A DNA stretch of 64,000 nucleotides, from positions 1-64,000 of the forward strand of contig NC_052489.1 in the NCBI RefSeq assembly GCF_009730915.1, written 5' to 3'. This document shows positions 1 to 33,321 of the stretch, piece after piece. This stretch comes from Dioscorea cayenensis subsp. rotundata. Taxonomy: Eukaryota; Streptophyta; Magnoliopsida; Dioscoreales; Dioscoreaceae. The position numbers and the translations under genes were made by a program. The notes below the pieces were generated by a model that ran no database searches, was not told the origin of the DNA, and saw only the letters and a list, made by a program, of their open reading frames with translations. Each line of letters begins with the position of its first letter. Position 1 is the first letter of the stretch.

Positions 1-1329
1 TAGTTATATTCAAACATGTTAGATTTGAGATTGGTTTTATATGTAAGGGTATGTGGTTAAAATAAAAATCATATTGAGATTTACCCTCAAGCCTGTCAAA
101 ATTTAAAATGAAAACAGTAAAAATAATACTTATTAAAAATGTATAACTAACAAAAACATGTTGAGATTTATGTCAAAAATTAGGGGGAAGAGGATAAGAA
201 ATATGGCTTCAAACCTTGATGCTAATCCTAAAGTTGGGTTAATAGTTAGAATATTTGCATGCACTGGCCCAAGCCCAAAAGATCACTGCACATTTTTATT
301 TCTCTTTGTCATATTTACGATGCTAAGTCATAGGCGGACCCACATGGGTGGCGACACCAGTGGCCGTGGAAAACATGAAGAACTCCATCGGATAAGGTTT
401 AAATCCTGATTAAGGAAAAGGAAAGCCCAAAGGTGAAAACGTGGTTGGGACACGATGATGTTTATTATGAAGATTGATTTTTATTTAAACCCCGGGTTGC
501 ACTCAAATTTCGAGTCCGACCCACTAGTCATAAGTCAAATTAATGCCAATTATTGTTAGGTCTATTAGTATAAGTTCTCTATGTAAAGTATTTGTATTTC
601 ATTGAGAATGCAGGTTCAACTCTCAGCTTGCATAGGATGAGGATACATGTGGTTGCAGAGTTTGTGATTACGCTTCATGCATGTATATACCATGACACAT
701 GACTTGTTCATGTATTTAAAAAACAAAAAATCAAATTAACATAACAAAGTTTAGTTGGCAACAAGGATTCAGATTTAAGCTTACCTACATTTACTATTAT
801 ACAATAATATGAGTTTGAACTATTATCTTGTTATTTATTTGTTTGTCTGATTTGACTGATTAATCATATAATGTTTTTATATTGTATCTTTTTCTATTTT
901 ATTAACCATATATATTGTAAATGTCTTGCAACTCAAAAATTTCTTCCCTAGTTCATCATCAGAAACTGTTATTATTATTGTTGCTGTAATTATCACTGTA
1001 GTGTTCAACATATATTTAATTTCTTTGAGTTAATGAGTGAGTTCCAACCTGCGCTTGAGCAGAATAAAGTTTAATTATTATTAATTTTTGACAAATTAAT
1101 TAGTAAAAATAAAAGACATAATTTAAGAGAGCGATCTAATCACATTTTATACAGAGGTGGCTCAAAAAGAGTATAAAAACAAAATATAACTTTTTGATGA
1201 ATTAAGTGTACTTTTTAATTCATCAAAATCCAGTCCACTGTACATGGAAGTGTTATGTAATTATGTTCAAGGATAAAAGTACGTACAAGGTACATCATGA
1301 AGTAAATAAAATTTAGTTCATTTTAACAA
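1..1329. other. AT-rich intergenic sequence
   Basis: No gene is visible. The stretch holds short low-complexity runs and one tRNA-like repeat near 555-720, listed separately. Its last nine bases, TTTTAACAA at 1321-1329, are the left target-site duplication of the MuDR-like element that follows. Confidence 0.7.
555..720 (+). repeat. tRNA-derived SINE-like relic
   Basis: An A-box-like stretch (TAGTATAAGTT, about 566-576) is followed about 40 bases later by a B-box-like stretch (GGTTCAACTCT, 613-623). This is the internal RNA polymerase III promoter layout of tRNA-derived SINEs. An A-rich run follows near 718. The upstream words GTCTATTRGTA are shared with the better SINE at 49121-49346. I found no target-site duplication, so the ends are approximate and a chance match remains possible. 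Confidence 0.4.
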
Positions 1330-2010
1330 GTGGAAATTGCCAAAAACCCTACAACTCTTGCCCAAATTGTCGAAACAAACCCCCATAGTTTTCGAATACT
1401 CAAAACCCCTTCCCTTTTTCAACTCCATGATTTTGAAACCCCCAAAAATACATGCTATGACATTAAGCGAGTGTATTTAAAAATTTTATGACTGAAAATG
1501 CCCTTGTCACGGAAGTCGTGGTGCTATGCCCCATTTCGTCGATGTGAGAGGAAGTGGGTGGGTTTTTCTTCAAAGCATTACAGATAGCTTGTCTTCTCTC
1601 AACTTTCGCGACTCGATCAGACTGCGTCTCCGACTCTTCTCTCCCAAGCACTCTTCCCTTTCCATGGCGTCTCGAAGAAGAAGTCCGTGCAAGTCTAGGC
1701 ATTTCATCACTTTGCGCCTAAAGGTATTCATTATGGTTTTTTGTTAACTATTCACATTACGAAGAGACATTTTTCGGTTTTGGTTTGTGATTTTGTTTTT
1801 GTTGGAAGACATTGAAGCTTTTCGAGGATTAATCTGGGGTTTTGTTAGTCTGAGGGAGATGTCTCGGCTAGGGTTTTTGTTTTTGTTTTACATTTCGATA
1901 CATGTATACGATCGGAAATGGTTTTCCGATTGTTGTGCTTTTGTGTAATGTTTATAATCTCGTTTTCACGTTCGAGTTGATATAGTTGCGATTGTAAAAA
2001 TGAGGACTCC

Positions 2011-2140
2011 GTTTAAAGCAATGAGCTTTCTGGTTTAAGTTAGTTCAGTCTCGTTTAATTATTTGTATCTCACGTTTAATAGTATACGTCAACTGCTTAA
2101 AAATGATATCGGTGTTTAAGAGCCGAGTGTTCTAGTTTAA
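2011..2140 (+). repeat. Phased GTTTAA array 1
   Basis: GTTTAA (once GCTTAA) starts at 2011, 2033, 2053, 2074, 2095, 2114 and 2135. The steps are 22, 20, 21, 21, 19 and 21 bases. The 13-16 bases between hexamers are not alike, so this is not an ordinary minisatellite. The array lies between the putative first exon and the first GC-rich block of the MuDR-like element. Confidence 0.85.
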
Positions 2141-3033
2141 CAAATTACATTTCAAGCTAACAATGTGCTTGTTATTGTCAGCGAGGCTTGTGATTATGGC
2201 TGGTCGATCTAGTTAATGGGCGATGCTACTTGACACATTAGTGGAGGCCGTGGGTCGAATTGAAAGTTCACATGATCCCTCGACATCTGGGAGATCATCA
2301 GAAGGACACCGCATTCCATGACATTCTATGAGTTGGAAGGCGTATACCAAGAGCTGGGCCTTCTTCGACTCTCTATTGCGAGAGATACGATAACGCGCTG
2401 ATAAATTCAGGGATCGGGAAAGCATCTCGACTTTCGGGACACGAAGATGTGGCATCGTTCTTGGCCCTGCTAGTTGCGATGGGGAGGCGATCGTGTTTCG
2501 AGAGAGAAGAAAACACGGTCGACTTCAAGAGAGGTATTTATCGAAGGCGTCACGAGAGCGCGAGACTCCATGAGCGAGCACTCTTCGAGACCTCGTTGGA
2601 CGGAGGAGAAGAGGAGAATTTTTGTCAAACCATCGATGGTGTACTGCTCACGGGTACAATCCTCTTCCCAAATACCTCCTCGCTCGGTTCCCTAACCTGG
2701 ATCGCTGATTATGTCGATGATCTACCCGGAATGGGGGCGCTACGCGTGAGGCATGGCGACGCACTAAGTGGCTTATGGAGGACATACCACGCTCGCTACC
2801 CGAGTGCGATCTAGATCTGCTGGGAAGAAGACCAACACGGGTATGTTAAGGGTTCTGCAGTGGCGCTTAACATCCCCGGTTTTACGGTGACCCGGAGCCG
2901 GAAAGAAAGTCCGGTTTTGCAAGATCCCAAGGATCTTTCGTGCCTACGGTGAAAATACTTACCGGAAGCTGAGCGATAGAGGCAGTTTGTCGTCTCTCGA
3001 AGGAAAAGAGGTAATAATTCAAAAATATTTTTT

Positions 3034-3271
3034 GTTTAGCTGAGGCGTTAACGTTTAACCATGATCATTACTCGTTTAACTTTATTCATCTATCGTTTAA
3101 AAATTATAACTTACCGTTTAACTTTGTTCGACTACCGCTTAAAACTTTTGGTTTAATGTTTAATTTGTTTGTTCTTTATGTTTAACACAATAGGTTATAA
3201 CGTTTAAATATACTGAGATTACAGTATGTAAATATAGTTTTTAATTGTTTAAACTAAATAATTTCGCTTAA
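3034..3271 (+). repeat. Phased GTTTAA array 2 (longest)
   Basis: GTTTAA-type hexamers start at 3034, 3053, 3074, 3095, 3116, 3137, 3158, 3180 and 3202, with further matches at 3247 and 3266. Most steps are exactly 21 bases. The hexamer is often preceded by AYC (for example TACC or TATC), while the rest of each unit differs. The block sits between a possible donor site near 3010 and the GC-rich block starting near 3290. Confidence 0.9.
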
Positions 3272-4403
3272 GATTGTTTTGCTTTACATATGCTAGTTTC
3301 TGAGATCGGTTCCGTGAATCTTGATGAAGAAGTATTTGTTCGAGACGATAGTCGGTCGGATGCTATTGCTCGGGCAAAACCGCTTGCTCGAAAAGGCGAG
3401 ATGAGAGAGCGACACCTCTTCCTTGTGCTACTGGCGCCTGTTCTCCCGCTTCCGGTCAAAACGCGTCGTCGAGGCCGGAGAAGCCCTCCCCCACCCCGCC
3501 CAGGCCGTGGCTTCCCCGACAGTGTCGCACCGAACGTGGCGGCTCCCTGCCGGCACTAAGCGAGGATGTCGACCGCAGACTCTCACGCGAGGGCTTGCAG
3601 ATTTTTGATGACCGAGTTCCCTCGGCTTGTCGCTCGGGTGGAGGCATTGGAAGGCCAGGTCGCGATCGCTGATCTTGCGCCCTGCTGAACAAATGAAGCA
3701 CGGGACGGATCAGCGCGTGCGGAGTTCGGCAGCGAGGACATCATCGAGGTGGCCCTTCGAGGCGGCCTCGTTCGAAGAAGCTGCAAAGAGGAAAACAATA
3801 ATGCCTCAGTCTCACCGCGTCTGCGGGCGACGATGAAATAATAAGCGGCACCATCGGCAGCAGCTTTCATCGGTAGCGATGTTGTTAGCGTTGATGACAT
3901 AGCCCATCACGGTGGAGGAGATTGAAAGATGGCGGCGAGTTTGCAGCGGTGGAAAAAGATCGATCGACTCTGTTGTTGTCGACATCATGCATCTGGTGGG
4001 CAAAGGCGTGGCAGATCTGGCGTCAAAGATGGACCCGATCCATCGAAGAAGAAGAACCGGAACAACGTTGTGTCTCCCATTGATCGTCTGGCCGAGTGGA
4101 ACTCACGGTTGAGAAGGTCGTTGAGTCTATCCTCAACGAAGTGGAATTCGCGATGGAACCAGCGGTTGACCGCGTCCTGCGTCGAGCGAGACCATGATCC
4201 CACGAGAACAAGAAGCATGTAAAGAAGTGTCTCCCAGTTGATCTCTGCTCGATGGTGTACCCCCGTTAAAGGGAAGCCCGATAAAAAGTAGAAGAACTCG
4301 GAAAGTCTTCGTTCAGAAGAAAAAATCGTTAGCCCGATCCGCCTCAATAAGTCTGAGCGAGGAGTTGATAAGGATCTTCCTCAGTCGCCTATGGACAGAT
4401 TAA

Positions 4404-4604
4404 GTTTGAAGTTTTTTATGATATTGTTTAAAAGCTGTTTTAGTTACCATTTTAAGTAGGAGCGTTAACGTTTAAAAATTCTGAGATAACATTTAACTTA
4501 TAAGTGATACCCTTTTAAATATTACCGATTCTGGTTTAAACATTCAATATAGAATTTAAAGTTTATACTTTAACGTTTAATTTTATACTTCTAACATTGT
4601 TTAC
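4404..4604 (+). repeat. Phased GTTTAA array 3
   Basis: Matches or near matches (GTTTAA, ATTTAA, TTTTAA, GTTTGA) start at 4404, 4426, 4449, 4470, 4491, 4512, 4534, 4554, 4575 and 4599. The period is 20-24 bases and mostly 21. Spacer sequence is not shared between units. Confidence 0.8.
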
Positions 4605-5421
4605 ATGTCTTTGTTCCGTTCAACCACGTGACATGTATGCGTGTGGAAGAATGACTACTGTCGGCACCACCGCAGGGCGATCTATTCGACTCTGCTCGAG
4701 GGAAGGAGATAGTCGCGAGGGACGATGTGATGGACGCGTCGTGATGTATCTTGCAAAAAGGCGATGAGCGTAGTGCCATGCTCGTTATAAAGAGCGCCTC
4801 CGTCACGACGGCCACTGGCCTTGTTCGATGTCAAAGCGAGCGGCGAGCTGCGATAGAATCCACGATGGCTATGATTGGAGATGCCGCGCGCGACTTGCAT
4901 GAAGTGGACATCGTCGTCCTCCAGATAATTATGAGTGGCCAGCTTCCGATAGTCAAATCGTCCTTGACAATGAAAAACAAGAATCAGGGCGTTATTCTTC
5001 AGTGCAAAGCGAAGAATCACGATAAAAGCAGCGCTAGAAATGGTAAGTGCTTTAATAATTTGTGTTTGTGTAATATTTTTAGGTAAATAATCGGCATTCT
5101 AATATGAACTTGTATATCTCGAAGCAGTAGAACCTATTCGACATCAGTATCGACATGGAGTTGGGCGGTCGGCGACCTCAAAATGCCAGCTTGTTCACGC
5201 CAACGGAGCCCCAGCGCGAGGAAGTGCTGCGGCGTCTATGTCATGCGGTTTATCGGCGAGTTACTCACGGTGAGAAGCTACGGGTACTGCGGTCGGCGTC
5301 CCTTATCTGCGATTAAGGTATGTTTCCGCATACTTAGGGAGGGAGGCGGTAGGCATCGACCCGGAGGAGTCTTGTAGCGGGTTCTTAGTCATTCTTTCTA
5401 TATTTGTATACGCGATTCTTT

Positions 5422-5526
5422 CTTTAATAATCAGATTCATTGTTTAACATACACTTTCGGTGTTTAAGTATATAGTTCATTGTGTAAATATCAATGTAAT
5501 TGTTTAAACTCCGTTTTCTTGTGTAA
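5422..5526 (+). repeat. Phased GTTTAA array 4, strict 20-bp period
   Basis: CTTTAA, GTTTAA or GTGTAA start at 5422, 5442, 5462, 5482, 5502 and 5521. The 20-base step does not preserve a reading frame, which argues against a coded heptad repeat. The array follows the Ulp1-like block. Confidence 0.8.
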
Positions 5527-5810
5527 AAAGCGAACAGGAGGAGTGTGCATGAAAGCGGGGTCATAGAAATCGTTGTATAGGTGTAATAGTTTCAAATGTA
5601 AAACCCAGGTTTAAATTCAATTCAGTTTTTCATAAGAACATGACAAATTTTTGTCGATGTAAATGTACATGTATCTAAATTCAATTAAATTCATTCTAGT
5701 TTCGTTTTGAGGTTACGTTCTTGTTGGATGATATTGTAGTCCATGAGGTACATTATCGGGTAGGGTTCGTTTCATTTTCATTTTTCATTATCGGCTAATA
5801 TCAACATTCA

Positions 5811-5908
5811 TTTTAAGCGTATAATGATAACTTTTTTGCCCTTTTAACTTTCGTTTTTCTCGTTTAAGTTTAGGTTTCTCTGTTTAAATTTAATATTTTT
5901 ACATTTAA
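5811..5908 (+). repeat. Phased TTTAA array 5, weaker
   Basis: TTTTAA or GTTTAA words start near 5811, 5842, 5862, 5882 and 5903. Most steps are 20-21 bases, with one missing or mutated unit. This is the last array in the plus-strand orientation. Confidence 0.6.
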
Positions 5909-6123
5909 AATATCCTTATTATTTAATAATATCAATGTAATTACAACAAAAATATACTTAATATTTTTACATTTTAAAAATATCCTTATTACTTAATAAT
6001 CTCTTATAGAGTGTAATGTAATGTTCGAATTTTTTTATGTGCGACAGGGAGTGGAAAGCGCTTGGGGAGCCCGGCGTGTAGTAGTGCAGCTAGGGAACGC
6101 TAGCACCATCCCGTTTATACATT

Positions 6124-6231
6124 TTAAGCGGATACAAATTTATTTTAAAGCGATAAAAATAACGATTAAGCAGAGAATAAAAATATTTAAAAGCGTAAGA
6201 GATATATTTAAATATAAAGTTCGATATTTAA
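6124..6231 (-). repeat. Phased TTTAA(AGCG) array 6, inverted orientation
   Basis: The TTAA core starts at 6124, 6145, 6166, 6187, 6208 and 6228, steps of 21, 21, 21, 21 and 20. Several units continue AAGCG to the right, so the motif read on the minus strand is CGCTTTAA. That is the mirror of the left-half arrays. Confidence 0.85.
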
Positions 6232-6446
6232 ACAATAATAAAGAAGTATATACCATGATACCTAGTCGTGACAGATTCATTCCACGATCTGCGATTGTGA
6301 CCGAAGCGTGCTGATGGCTACAACGCAACTTAGCGACCTCGGGACGCTTCTACGACTCGATCCTCTTTCAAATCTAGGACACCGGGTTGCCTTCTCGTCA
6401 CGAGCGATCATAAGCGCGATTCGCGATTTTCATCCATCGGCTGTCG

Positions 6447-7230
6447 TCATTGTCCGGTATGGGGAATATAGCTTCCCTTATCGCCATTTTTGAAGTCGAA
6501 GCTACCTTCACGATCTCCGGTGTTTCTGTTCTTGATGAATTTGAAGTCAAAATTCCTTTTTGATTGCAGAAATTCTAAGTCGTCTCTGAAATGTTCAGCG
6601 CCTTGAAAACATTGTCGATATCCAGCGACAACACTTGACTGATCGGATGAGGAAGGAAGGCATGCCACACCCTCGAGCTCGCCATGATGTGGAGCGAGCT
6701 GCGCGGATTACGAATTCACTGCCAACACTTTAGTTTAAAGCGAACACGATCGATATTTAAAGCGAGAGACACAAAATATTTAAAGCGATAAACATAAATC
6801 TTAAGCGTTAAAACAAAAAGTTAAATAATAAGTTAATAAGTTAATGGAAACTTGATAAATGTAAAGCGATGGCGAGGGATAATAAACAATAATTAACTTC
6901 TACAACTATATAAACATAAGCGAGAAGAAACTTACAACGAGAAGAACTGCGTTTTTCGGTGAGGATCACGATGCCACATCATACATCTCAACAACAAGAT
7001 CAACAACGAGAACATTTTGAAGATGGAGTGCGCGTGACACATGCTGTTGGAAGTCAACCTCGTTTTTATATAGAGACATACTGATTTTATGTCCATCGGG
7101 TGTGATAACTTCCCCTCGACACTGGGAAATATCGAGACCCCATCGCTCGCATATTTCGTGCTACTCTGATTCCCCAGTCGGTGCAGTGGACGTTAGCGCT
7201 CGATCCCTCCCCGTTGTATCTAGCGATAGC
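6447..7230 (-). pseudogene. Relic of mudrA-type transposase N-terminus
   Basis: Read on the minus strand, 6447-6668 gives FRDDLEFLQSKRNFDFKFIKN. This resembles the plant MuDR N-terminal DNA-binding domain, which has an F-x-(S/D) start and an 'aikn.fdfkfikn' core. Upstream on the same strand, about 7000-7230, one frame reads GHKISMSLYKNEVDFQ, like the variable start of plant MULE transposases. No DDE catalytic part is visible, so only the 5' end of the gene seems to remain. It points inward from the right terminus, opposite to the left gene. The family call rests on eye-level similarity. Confidence 0.4.
6735..6866 (-). repeat. Phased TTTAAAGCG array 7, inverted orientation
   Basis: TTAA cores start at 6735, 6757, 6780, 6801, 6821 and 6841, with a final TAAAGCG near 6862. 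The first three units read ATTTAAAGCGA or nearly so. The array lies between the two minus-strand mudrA-like blocks. Confidence 0.8.
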
Positions 7231-7283
7231 ACAAAAAAACTCTCCATAATTTAATCGGAAGAGCTAAAATTGAATACAGCCCA

Positions 7284-7330
7284 AATGAGGAAGAAGAAAA
7301 AGAAGAAGAAGAAGAAGAAGAAGAAGAACA
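7284..7330 (+). repeat. (GAA)n-rich microsatellite
   Basis: A run of GAA/AAG triplets lies near the right end of the MuDR-like element, with A-rich flanks. Confidence 0.8.
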
Positions 7331-7637
7331 AGAAGCAAGAAACGAAAACAAGAAGAAAGCAAGATATAGGCGCCTAAAACTTTGTTTGAGAAAAAGCAGG
7401 AGGCAAGATTGAAAAACTATCGTAAAAGAAAGTTATGATTAGGTAGCCATTTTTCACCTTTTGTAAGAGCGAAAAAGGAATTTCATATCGATGGACCCAC
7501 TTCAAACTTACCGTGAGGGGTTAAAAAGGAATGTAAAAATATAACGAGATTTGTCCAGGGTGTCACAAAAGTTGGAGGGGGTTTTTGGGAAGTTTTGAAA
7601 ATTACGAGGGGTGAACAGTAATTTCCCCTTTTAACAA

Positions 7638-8483: not shown

Positions 8484-8545
8484 GAACCCAATGGTGCTTC
8501 ACTAGAAAGCACACATTATTTCTACTGCTTCTCTTTCAAAGATCA

Positions 8546-10116
<1,571 letters not shown>

Positions 10117-12635: not shown

Positions 12636-13668
12636 TCAAAAATATTCTTCTTGATTGTGAATTGATTCAAAGAAATCCTCCGCCCAATATTTCCTTAGCT
12701 CTTCATCCTTTGCTAAGAAAGCCATAGCTCTACTATCATCGGCCATTAACCAATCATAGGCCTTATTGATTTGACGGCCAGAGTAGCCATATACTTTCAA
12801 TTTCATGCACTCACCAATCAATTCCTTTGCAAATTCTAAATTTCGAGTAGACTTCTTTGTTACCAATGCCTCTTTAATTGTGTTATTCATCTCCTGTATT
12901 GCTTCAACTTCAGAGGGCATTTTTCGTTTTCCTTTTCCTTTTTTTGATTGAGCAGAAGATTCCCCCCTATTTTCTGTACTCTCTGATTGGTTGTGGGTGG
13001 GCGGTGGTATATTGACATGATAATTAGTGTCCTCAAACATGTCATCAAGACTTTCTGTCTGAGATGGATGGCGGTACTCAACACTATCATCCATATGGGT
13101 GCCGATTTCATCTCCAAATTGCACAGCACGTCGTCCAGTTGCTTGATCATTACCGCAAACAATCTCAAGCAAGTCATGATCCTCAATTGGTTTGTTTAAG
13201 TAGGGCTCATCTTGTGGATGAATCTGGTATAGTAAAAAATTATTTCATAATTAGTACATGGACAATGTAAATAGAAATAAATTAGAAATAGATGTGAACC
13301 TTTATGTAGTTCTTGAACTCTGATTCTCCCATAATTATCATCTTCAGTCTGTTATCCCAACCCATTCCGCTTAACTCTTTCAATTTTTTAATTCTTGCCC
13401 ATCTTTTGCGAATTGTTCTCAAGTGGTTATTCACATTTGCTTCAGTGACTATAATTCCGAACTCATTCTTCATTGCAATGATTGATGCATGAAGTGCTTG
13501 CGGTTTGAAACCCTTATCGACTTTCAAGCCTTGCTCAACTTGAGAAGCCATGAATCTTAAAAAAAATCGACTTTCGGCAGTGGTCCATCTTTTATTGCCA
13601 CCTGATCTTTTGGTTGGGGTTCTCATTGATGACATTTGACTATCTTCTGACATTCTTGTGTTATCCAT
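12636..13668 (-). CDS. PIF/Harbinger ORF1, Myb/SANT-like DNA-binding protein
   Basis: Two exons on the minus strand (13668-13300 and 13223-12636) join in frame through a GT-AG intron of 76 bases to give 318 residues. Residues about 25-115 form a Myb/SANT-like domain: W28 in KRWTTAES, then NNHLRTIRKRWARIKKL, SGMGWDNRLKMI, and after the splice IHPQDEPYLNKP. A low-complexity acidic and basic linker follows (KKGKGKRKMPSEVEAI), then a helical C-terminus ending EDFFESIHNQEEYF. In Harbinger elements such ORF1 proteins bind the termini and escort the transposase to the nucleus. The start at 13668 is the first methionine after which the domain is complete; an in-frame extension to 13728 is possible. 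The frame is uninterrupted, unlike its transposase partner. Confidence 0.8.
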
Positions 13669-13855
13669 TCTAAAATTGCCACATAAACAAGAAATTATTA
13701 CAACAACAAAATTAAACAAACATTCCAAACAAGCTAAGTAATGCTATTATGACAATCGAAATTTGTTCATAGAAATATAGGAAAATAATTATCAAATACA
13801 AGCTAGAAAATTAAACAAACATCCACATATTTCCATAAGCACAACAAATAATTTT

Positions 13856-14262
13856 CTACTTGTTTGCCCACATATCGCATGCAATCTGTTCTCGACGTGC
13901 CACCCACTCTTGGGCATCCTCTCTTTGTTCTCTCACGTTACTTTCTGAGGGTGGTCGTTGTGGTGTCCATTCTTCCTCAGAGGGTATGAACATATCTTCT
14001 CCACCACTTATAATATAATTATGCAAAATACATGCAGCTAAAACTAGTTCAGCTTGAGTTTTGAAAGGAAAGAATGGTCTTGATGATAAAATTTTGAAAC
14101 GTCCCTTAAGAGAACCAAAAGCTCTTTCAATGGTGGTTCGAGCTGATGAGTGACGAAGATTAAAAAGTTCTTTATGATTTGCCGGTGTCCGCGAGCCAAA
14201 CTCTTTAAGATGGGGAGTAAAACGTTAGGGTGATTTGTCAACCATCAAGCTTTGTTGGGAGT
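13856..14262 (-). pseudogene. PIF/Harbinger DDE transposase, C-terminal fragment with frameshift
   Basis: Minus-strand translation gives HLKEFGSRTPANHKELFN, then RHSSARTTIERAFGSLKGRF, then FKTQAELVLAACILHNYI. These match the end of Harbinger nucleases (DDE_Tnp_4), including the late ERAFG and ILHN motifs. The frame runs on to a stop at 13856. Near 14212 the frame shifts: the preceding residues (LTNHPNVLLP) lie in another frame. Beyond about 14270 the sequence turns into ATT repeats, so the rest of the catalytic core is missing. It lies just upstream of ORF1 on the same strand. Confidence 0.8.
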
Positions 14263-16091: not shown

Positions 16092-16420
16092 ACTTCTCTA
16101 ATCGGCGGGGAAGGATCGGAGGCGAAGAAGAGAGTGATAATTGATGAAGGAATGGAGTTGACTTCTCCGATCGATGAGGAAAGAATGGAGGCAAAGATGA
16201 CAGCGATCGCCGAGGAAGGAACAGATGTAATTTCTCCGATCTGCGAGGAAAAAATTGAGGCAAAAGTGGAAGAGATCGTCGGAGAACGAACGGAGATGAC
16301 TTCTCCGATCGGCAATGAAAGAACGGAGGAGGTGGCAGCGATTGTCGAGATCCTCCGAAGGCGACTTCTCGAGCAGCGAGGAAAGAACTGAGGCGAAGGA
16401 GAGATCGATGAATGGAGGCG
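16092..16420 (+). repeat. 69-bp minisatellite open in several frames
   Basis: Units start ACTTCTC or ATTTCTC at 16092, 16161, 16230, 16299 and 16364, so three steps of 69 and one of 65 bases. On the plus strand it codes a 23-residue repeat (TSPIDEERMEAK type) inside an open frame from 15933 to 16391. On the minus strand three overlapping frames are also open, because the unit lacks stops. The frame may have no protein function. It sits just inside the right Harbinger terminus, where a leader would lie. Confidence 0.8.
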
Positions 16421-32321: not shown

Positions 32322-33321
32322 NNNNNNNNNNNNNNNNNNNNNNNNNNNNNNNNNNNNNNNNNNNNNNNNNNNNNNNNNNNNNNNNNNNNNNNNNNNNNNN
32401 NNNNNNNNNNNNNNNNNNNNNNNNNNNNNNNNNNNNNNNNNNNNNNNNNNNNNNNNNNNNNNNNNNNNNNNNNNNNNNNNNNNNNNNNNNNNNNNNNNNN
32501 NNNNNNNNNNNNNNNNNNNNNNNNNNNNNNNNNNNNNNNNNNNNNNNNNNNNNNNNNNNNNNNNNNNNNNNNNNNNNNNNNNNNNNNNNNNNNNNNNNNN
32601 NNNNNNNNNNNNNNNNNNNNNNNNNNNNNNNNNNNNNNNNNNNNNNNNNNNNNNNNNNNNNNNNNNNNNNNNNNNNNNNNNNNNNNNNNNNNNNNNNNNN
32701 NNNNNNNNNNNNNNNNNNNNNNNNNNNNNNNNNNNNNNNNNNNNNNNNNNNNNNNNNNNNNNNNNNNNNNNNNNNNNNNNNNNNNNNNNNNNNNNNNNNN
32801 NNNNNNNNNNNNNNNNNNNNNNNNNNNNNNNNNNNNNNNNNNNNNNNNNNNNNNNNNNNNNNNNNNNNNNNNNNNNNNNNNNNNNNNNNNNNNNNNNNNN
32901 NNNNNNNNNNNNNNNNNNNNNNNNNNNNNNNNNNNNNNNNNNNNNNNNNNNNNNNNNNNNNNNNNNNNNNNNNNNNNNNNNNNNNNNNNNNNNNNNNNNN
33001 NNNNNNNNNNNNNNNNNNNNNNNNNNNNNNNNNNNNNNNNNNNNNNNNNNNNNNNNNNNNNNNNNNNNNNNNNNNNNNNNNNNNNNNNNNNNNNNNNNNN
33101 NNNNNNNNNNNNNNNNNNNNNNNNNNNNNNNNNNNNNNNNNNNNNNNNNNNNNNNNNNNNNNNNNNNNNNNNNNNNNNNNNNNNNNNNNNNNNNNNNNNN
33201 NNNNNNNNNNNNNNNNNNNNNNNNNNNNNNNNNNNNNNNNNNNNNNNNNNNNNNNNNNNNNNNNNNNNNNNNNNNNNNNNNNNNNNNNNNNNNNNNNNNN
33301 NNNNNNNNNNNNNNNNNNNNN
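32322..33321. other. Assembly gap of 1000 N
   Basis: Exactly 1000 N. The round number suggests a placeholder rather than a measured size. Open frames across it are artefacts. Confidence 1.

Follow-up and report, generated by a model that had tools for sequence, protein, structure and literature searches.

Phased GTTTAA arrays in a Mutator-like element of Dioscorea cayenensis subsp. rotundata as putative targets of a VANC-like anti-silencing protein

The element and its phased arrays

The window analyzed here is the 64,000-nt stretch at positions 1-64,000 of contig NC_052489.1 of Dioscorea cayenensis subsp. rotundata. It carries a Mutator-like element (MULE) of 6.3 kb, inserted at 1330-7628 between two copies of TTTTAACAA (a 9-bp target duplication), and within this element the hexamer GTTTAA recurs every 20-21 bp in a series of arrays (Table 1). 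A preliminary description had proposed that such arrays are protein-recognized sites of the VANC kind, and we suggest that they are probably the cis-acting targets of a putative VANC-like anti-silencing protein.

The arrays themselves are real. A chain finder that required at least four units, each with at least five of the six bases of GTTTAA, at steps of 18-24 bp on either strand, recovered six arrays in the 64 kb, all of them within the element and at the places reported before. Elsewhere in the window it found no array, and the reversed word AATTTG did not yield any. Arrays were also missing from 200 shuffled versions of the element (dinucleotide shuffling within blocks of 300 bp), by which chance is ruled out. 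The preliminary description had counted seven arrays; the seventh fell below the threshold in the window copy and was visible only in the column majority of its family, and the last two arrays actually lie on the minus strand. The argument that a 20-bp step would break a coded heptad repeat is moot, because the arrays are located in introns and between genes, and a coded repeat is ruled out on the same ground. Array 2 lies in an intron at 3011-3296 with GT-AG borders by homology.

The steps and the unit profile were pooled over the window element and three coding relatives (L029, L031 and L032). In these elements the arrays occupy introns and intergenic parts, mostly on the sense strand of their own gene half. 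The 132 steps were distributed over 18 (1), 19 (5), 20 (61), 21 (44), 22 (14), 23 (3) and 24 bp (4), with a mean of 20.68, so that 105 of them were 20 or 21. In the profile of 156 units, all six bases of GTTTAA carried information of 0.76-1.85 bits, the first G having 1.85 bits, compared to 0.40 bits directly 3' of the word, and none of the preceding 14 bases exceeded 0.30 bits. Within one element the spacers of the arrays differ, while word and pitch stay. The claim that only the hexamer and its phase are kept needs correction for array 2, in which vestiges of a longer unit survive, because Tandem Repeats Finder scored part of it (3073-3169) as a 42-bp repeat.

An element of the MuDR type had been proposed for this locus. 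The insertion is indeed a MULE, but its genes are broken and it appears to be a non-autonomous copy, not an intact MuDR. The catalytic core of the transposase was not found in the window element, and a Pfam scan of three open reading frames (ORFs) of the window gave a single match, below the threshold. The remnant of the MuDR DNA-binding domain was located with a piece of L029 that corresponds to DBD_Tnp_Mut (68.1 bits). The terminal inverted repeats are short and degenerate, with a local score of 22.0 compared to a mean of 13.2 and a maximum of 21.5 in 200 shuffles; such degeneracy is described as a feature of VANDAL elements (PMC10398659).

A genome search with array 1 returned 40 scored matches out of 174 candidates, and 20 further copies of the family were fetched from the same genome. 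Matches started at element base 1 in 17 of the 20 copies, and an exact 9-bp target duplication was recognized by eye in 12. The window copy and 19 of the fetched copies (L027 was omitted) were aligned, with pairwise identities of 81-95%, and the window copy differs by 7.2% from the column majority. All 20 aligned sequences matched the DUF1985 peptide, 17 of them in two or more frames, and the MuDR DNA-binding piece was matched by at least 17; the MULE core and SWIM peptides of the relatives had no match in these 20 sequences at E 1e-3. Because core and SWIM matches are missing and DUF1985 is mostly found in more than one frame, the whole family looks non-autonomous.

Table 1. Features of the MULE insertion in the window
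Feature	Position	Strand	Evidence
Target-site duplication TTTTAACAA, left	1321..1329	.	sequence reading
MULE insertion, apparently non-autonomous, ends GTGGAAATT.../...AATTTCCCC	1330..7628	+	ends and duplication read directly
Array 1, 7 units, likely first intron (GT 1724, AG 2180-2181; intron predicted)	2011..2140	+	chain finder
DUF1985 exon remnant, broken, matched in two frames	2288..2949	+	L029 peptide in tblastn (E 6e-14, 8e-12)
Array 2, 9 units (3034-3207) and two weaker, intron 3' of DUF1985 exon	3034..3271	+	chain finder
Array 3, 11 units, upstream of Ulp1-like exons	4404..4623	+	chain finder
Ulp1-like exon remnants (4682-4954, 5087-5371)	4682..5371	+	tblastn, E 9e-18 and 9e-6
Array 4, 6 units, downstream of Ulp1-like exons	5422..5526	+	chain finder
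Array 5, 6 units, between both gene remnants	5819..5926	+	chain finder
Array 6, 6 units, transposase-gene half	6124..6233	-	chain finder
MuDR DNA-binding domain remnant of transposase gene (element coordinates 5199-5378)	6528..6707	-	tblastn with L029 domain, E 4e-14
Array 7, decayed in window copy (below threshold)	6735..6866	-	7 units in column majority of 20 aligned copies
Target-site duplication TTTTAACAA, right	7629..7637	.	sequence reading

Coding relatives, words and pitch

In L029, the domains DUF1985, PMD and MULE scored above the Pfam cut-offs (DUF1985 44.2 bits with a cut-off of 35.1, MULE 72.4 bits). The same was true of MULE (45.5 bits) and SWIM in L032 and of SWIM in L031, and both loci match the DUF1985, transposase and Ulp1-region peptides of L029. 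A C-terminal piece of L032 reached 17.8 bits for Peptidase_C48 (Ulp1), below the cut-off of 20.7. The Ulp1-like gene is opposite to the transposase in all three loci. A sequence search of PDB for relatives of DUF1985 gave a best E of 0.053, and the protein was not a VANC.

A genome search for DUF1985, from which L029 and L030 were drawn, scored 150 of 455 candidates. We took the 1 kb behind 20 of these matches, which had been selected over the length of the list before the sequence was inspected. Ten of the 20 introns contained a GTTTAA array, and in all ten the best chain was on the sense strand and began at 350-384 bases, a short way into the next intron; in five of them an overlapping chain on the antisense strand scored as well, but more weakly. 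Other words were found in some of the remaining ten. L049 has seven units of TGTATA/TGTGTATA at steps of 20-21, a TGTGTATA array also being present in L030, and L037 has six units of a CACTTA-like word. L050 and L052 have weaker TGTTTA series of five units each, and in L034, L041, L051, L043 and L045 the series did not exceed those in 15 shuffles of each. L039 was scored as array-less, its three units reaching 4.2 compared to a maximum of 4.0 in 15 shuffles. In L043 (400-610), the intron lacks a 20-21 bp array and was seen by eye to hold a tandem repeat of greater length, about 80 bp.

Word and pitch are specific at the scale of the genome (584 Mb in 2,249 contigs). Exact triples of GTTTAA at a period of 20-21 numbered 11,850, compared to 16 for the reversed pattern, while the counts were 7 and 7 at a period of 15-16 and 3 and 11 at 10-11. 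The neighboring word ATTTAA gave 1,808 triples at 20-21 (89 in the control), and GTGTATA gave 116 at this pitch (5 in the control); among the GTGTATA places listed, at least five were seen by eye within 1 kb behind a DUF1985 match. Among the places listed, all of them within the initial 3.7 Mb of contig C1, about 19 array clusters were recognized by eye, and four were inspected. Three of these four array-picked loci were window family or carriers of MULE-type genes, by which the expected link to MULEs is supported; the three are L031, L032 and L020, the last a copy of the window family. The fourth, L033 (G000:C1:1105100-1115000), contains at 4307-5552 clean repeats with a unit of 20 bp, made of GTTTAA and, in most cases, GAAATGAGTTTTCT, and similar units occupy many of the listed genome-wide matches. 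A single conserved 20-mer largely describes L033 and not the window family. A search for terminal repeats of L033 gave no result.

The hexamer is under selection in related lineages. We compared nine complete homologous arrays from introns of DUF1985 genes, leaving out L032, L036, L040 and L042 because their arrays were incomplete. The mean pairwise difference was 0.048 in the hexamers, 0.236 in the spacers and 0.118 outside the arrays, and on A/T positions alone it was 0.020 in hexamers compared to 0.213 in spacers. Only 1 of 20,000 random placements was as low as the hexamer value, and when the hexamer set was slid from -10 to +10 the difference rose at every shift except +1 (0.040). In all 13 rows, the distance to the majority was 0.036, 0.152 and 0.083 in hexamers, spacers and outside, respectively. 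Ten TGTGTATA arrays gave 0.050 in the motif and 0.261 in the spacers, a motif value that is biased because eight rows (L054-L061) were picked by a three-unit pattern requiring the word, and only L030 and L049 were not. Compared to the other aligned rows, L059 has two extra units and L049 one, in whole 20-bp steps, and thus the arrays grow and shrink by units.

A tree of the DUF1985 exon (about 345 bases, 26 rows; L016, L029-L032 and the window were cut by coordinates) placed the GTTTAA rows in one group (15 rows, support 100/99) and the TGTGTATA rows in a separate one (2 rows, 100/100), with the CRCTTAA row as sister to the GTTTAA group (88/99). The word goes with the DUF1985 clade, and related lineages bear different words at the same pitch. 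Related VANC proteins are likewise described as using different words (PMC5735166; PMC10398659).

CpG content beside the arrays

In homologous DUF1985 exons, the pooled ratio of observed to expected CpG (o/e) was 1.12 at GTTTAA loci (n=13, range 0.94-1.30), 0.82 at the CRCTTAA locus (n=1), 0.72 with TGTGTATA (n=2), 0.61 with a weak series (n=2) and 0.38 where no array was found (n=6, 0.24-0.59). TG+CA o/e was 1.06 at GTTTAA loci and 1.33 at array-less loci. The GTTTAA loci differ from the last eight (weak and array-less) with a Mann-Whitney P of 1e-5, although rows that share a clade are not independent. CpG o/e was 1.16-1.37 in the 20 fetched copies of the family, compared to 0.48 in the remaining window.

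The simplest reading of the retained CpG is a long escape from CG methylation, for which it is indirect evidence. The GTTTAA clade may instead be young or have a coding bias that explains the contrast. When copies of the family were compared with one another, CpG transitions amounted to 0.13-0.17 per comparable site and those in other contexts to 0.04-0.15, a mild excess. The count based on a consensus omitted 480 of 6,245 columns without a 70% majority, 93 of which were in CG context on recounting; it understates CpG change because the skipped columns include CG sites, and the consensus-free count is the better guide. For a control repeat family that could calibrate CpG decay, self-comparison of the window gave pieces that were too short.

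Harbinger-like pieces were seen in the window at 12636-14224 (minus strand), with a Myb/SANT-like domain and a fragment of a DDE endonuclease. The 1-kb bins over them have a CpG o/e of 0.23-0.58, unlike the MULE. A peroxidase gene lies at 8545-10116, starting about 0.9 kb beyond the right end of the insertion; its piece 9673-10113 scored 77.9 bits for the Pfam peroxidase domain. A 69-bp tandem repeat of 2.7 copies at 16146-16329 is perhaps coded, because it is inside an open frame of 152 aa. An assembly gap of 1,000 N occupies 32322-33321.

Anti-silencing, its alternatives and known systems

We propose the following scheme. In relatives of the element, the MULE transposase is accompanied by a DUF1985/PMD protein with Ulp1-like exons, and the DUF1985 protein would recognize GTTTAA. 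With units about two helical turns apart, many molecules could be bound on one face of the DNA, perhaps co-operatively, so that only dense, phased arrays would recruit the protein. The bound protein may strip or block DNA methylation over the element, and the element genes would therefore stay on. Non-autonomous copies such as that in the window would bear the arrays and be served in trans, and among related lineages the word appears to have changed while the pitch was kept. The VANC-type recognition put forward in the preliminary description is thus upheld by the genome-wide specificity of word and phase, by hexamer conservation in related lineages and by DUF1985 in the relatives, the function being still putative.

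Some observations weigh against this scheme. Eight of the 20 downstream DUF1985 introns contained no series or merely a weak one, and two arrays in the transposase half of L032 (2758-2828 and 2963-3030) score better antisense. The CpG contrast comes from few clades, with rows that are not independent and with clade age uncontrolled. The expectation that hexamers outlast spacers was true for homologous arrays of related lineages, but among copies of the window family the hexamers are not clearly conserved (0.0330 compared to 0.0435 in spacers), and sliding the windows by +1 to +10 gave values equally low or lower. We infer that the word has been under selection in active lineages and has decayed neutrally in dead copies. 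The arrays of L033 are clean, yet none of the MULE/DUF1985-type genes was apparent among its listed ORFs, for which no Pfam scan was made. L033 may be an unrelated element, or a non-autonomous one, that has acquired GTTTAA, just as the non-VANDAL element AT9TSD1 of Arabidopsis is reported to bear a VANDAL word (PMC5735166).

The transposase travels with DUF1985 and could itself be the binder, which makes it the main rival in that role. The arrays would then serve transposition or a relief of silencing, with DUF1985 as a bystander. Because the transposase is encoded by the same elements, it would diverge along with the word, and a transposase tree would probably show the same grouping as the DUF1985 tree. 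In CACTA/Spm, the element-encoded TnpA binds repeated short subterminal words and affects methylation. However, CACTA is another superfamily and has no DUF1985, and the arrays here are internal (introns and intergenic), not subterminal. In Arabidopsis, VANC21 transgenes without the other two genes are reported to suffice for demethylation (PMC5735166), and we consider the transposase an unlikely binder.

The remaining explanations have very little probability in our opinion. A neutral, decaying minisatellite of AT-rich introns would account for the gain and loss of units in whole steps, the 42-bp repeat in array 2, the clean 20-bp repeat of L033 and the lack of a clear hexamer contrast in the window family. 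However, hexamer divergence is about five times below that of the spacers and also below the flanks, another clade has the same pitch with a different word, and spacers differ between arrays of one element; on the differing spacers and the hexamer-spacer contrast, a plain minisatellite was rejected. A structural signal, in which phased A/T tracts bend DNA or place nucleosomes without a word-specific protein, agrees with the two-turn pitch and the A/T-rich word. It is scarcely credible in view of the information in the first G, the excess of GTTTAA over ATTTAA triples, the lack of one-turn phasing and the different word of the other clade; A/T composition or bare bending was rejected on the profile bits, the one-turn count and the ATTTAA count. 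The sense orientation of the best chain in every DUF1985-gene intron with a GTTTAA array, and of most arrays of both genes, would suit an RNA-level intron signal in which GUUUAA is read in the transcript. Such a signal is most improbable, because the helical phase has little meaning to RNA, arrays also occur between convergent genes (window 5422-5926), and two L032 arrays are better antisense.

In a bolder reading, the pitch would be ancient and the word would not. We tentatively imagine DUF1985 as a helical filament with a fixed two-turn repeat whose reading head was swapped between lineages (GTTTAA, CRCTTAA, TGTGTATA), and the arrays might have kept whole MULE lineages out of germline CG methylation while they diverged, recorded as missing CpG decay. 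This reading is somewhat less likely true than false.

The VANC proteins of Arabidopsis are described as DUF1985 proteins that bind short arrayed words in introns and elsewhere in non-coding sequence, and that clear methylation from the element (PMC5735166; PMC10398659). VANC21/VANDAL21 (Hiun) and VANC6/VANDAL6 (Hosaka et al. 2017, PMC5735166) are likewise MULEs with a DUF1985 gene. According to the same source, they also share with our elements words arrayed densely and in a single orientation within non-coding sequence (introns, intergenic and terminal parts), different words in related elements, and gain and loss of units. Because the elements match in these sequence-visible features, we read GTTTAA and TGTGTATA as VANC-like address words. 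The words themselves differ, being YAGTATTAY and AGTTGTCC/AGTTGTAC in the Arabidopsis VANDALs, and binding and demethylation were demonstrated there (PMC5735166), whereas our evidence comes from sequence. The parts of Hosaka et al. (PMC5735166) that we drew on contain no mention of spacing, helical periodicity or a repeat unit. KAONASHI (KI) and other ULP-MULEs of Arabidopsis, melon, rice and grapevine resemble our elements in having a Ulp1-like gene, which in KI is also opposite to the transposase, but no phased arrays are described in the parts of these accounts consulted (PMC2528002, PMC13317346). A 2026 review states that Ulp1-bearing VANC genes act likewise, citing Sasaki et al. 2022 (PMC13317346).

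A literature search by title and abstract gave nothing on GTTTAA with tandem repeats or on phased repeats of MULEs. However, Sasaki et al. in 2022 reportedly found that the targeting of VANC depends on the sequence of the words, their density and their helical periodicity, which would leave unsupported the view of the preliminary description that it knew of no such phased motif in MULEs. Their work is also said to cover Mu-like anti-silencing in eudicots, VANC diversity in the DUF1985, DUF287 and Ulp1 parts, and non-autonomous copies that are served. Because helical periodicity is reportedly part of VANC targeting, the Dioscorea arrays are most likely a further example of the known VANC/VANDAL system and not a new kind of system. 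They suggest sequence-addressed anti-silencing of the VANC type on a large scale within one plant genome, given the number of exact triples, and supply two predicted address words together with their pitch. CpG retention next to arrays is a cheap footprint, which might reveal long-term anti-silencing from sequence alone. Compared to the known system, what is new here is the words, the scale and the CpG footprint.

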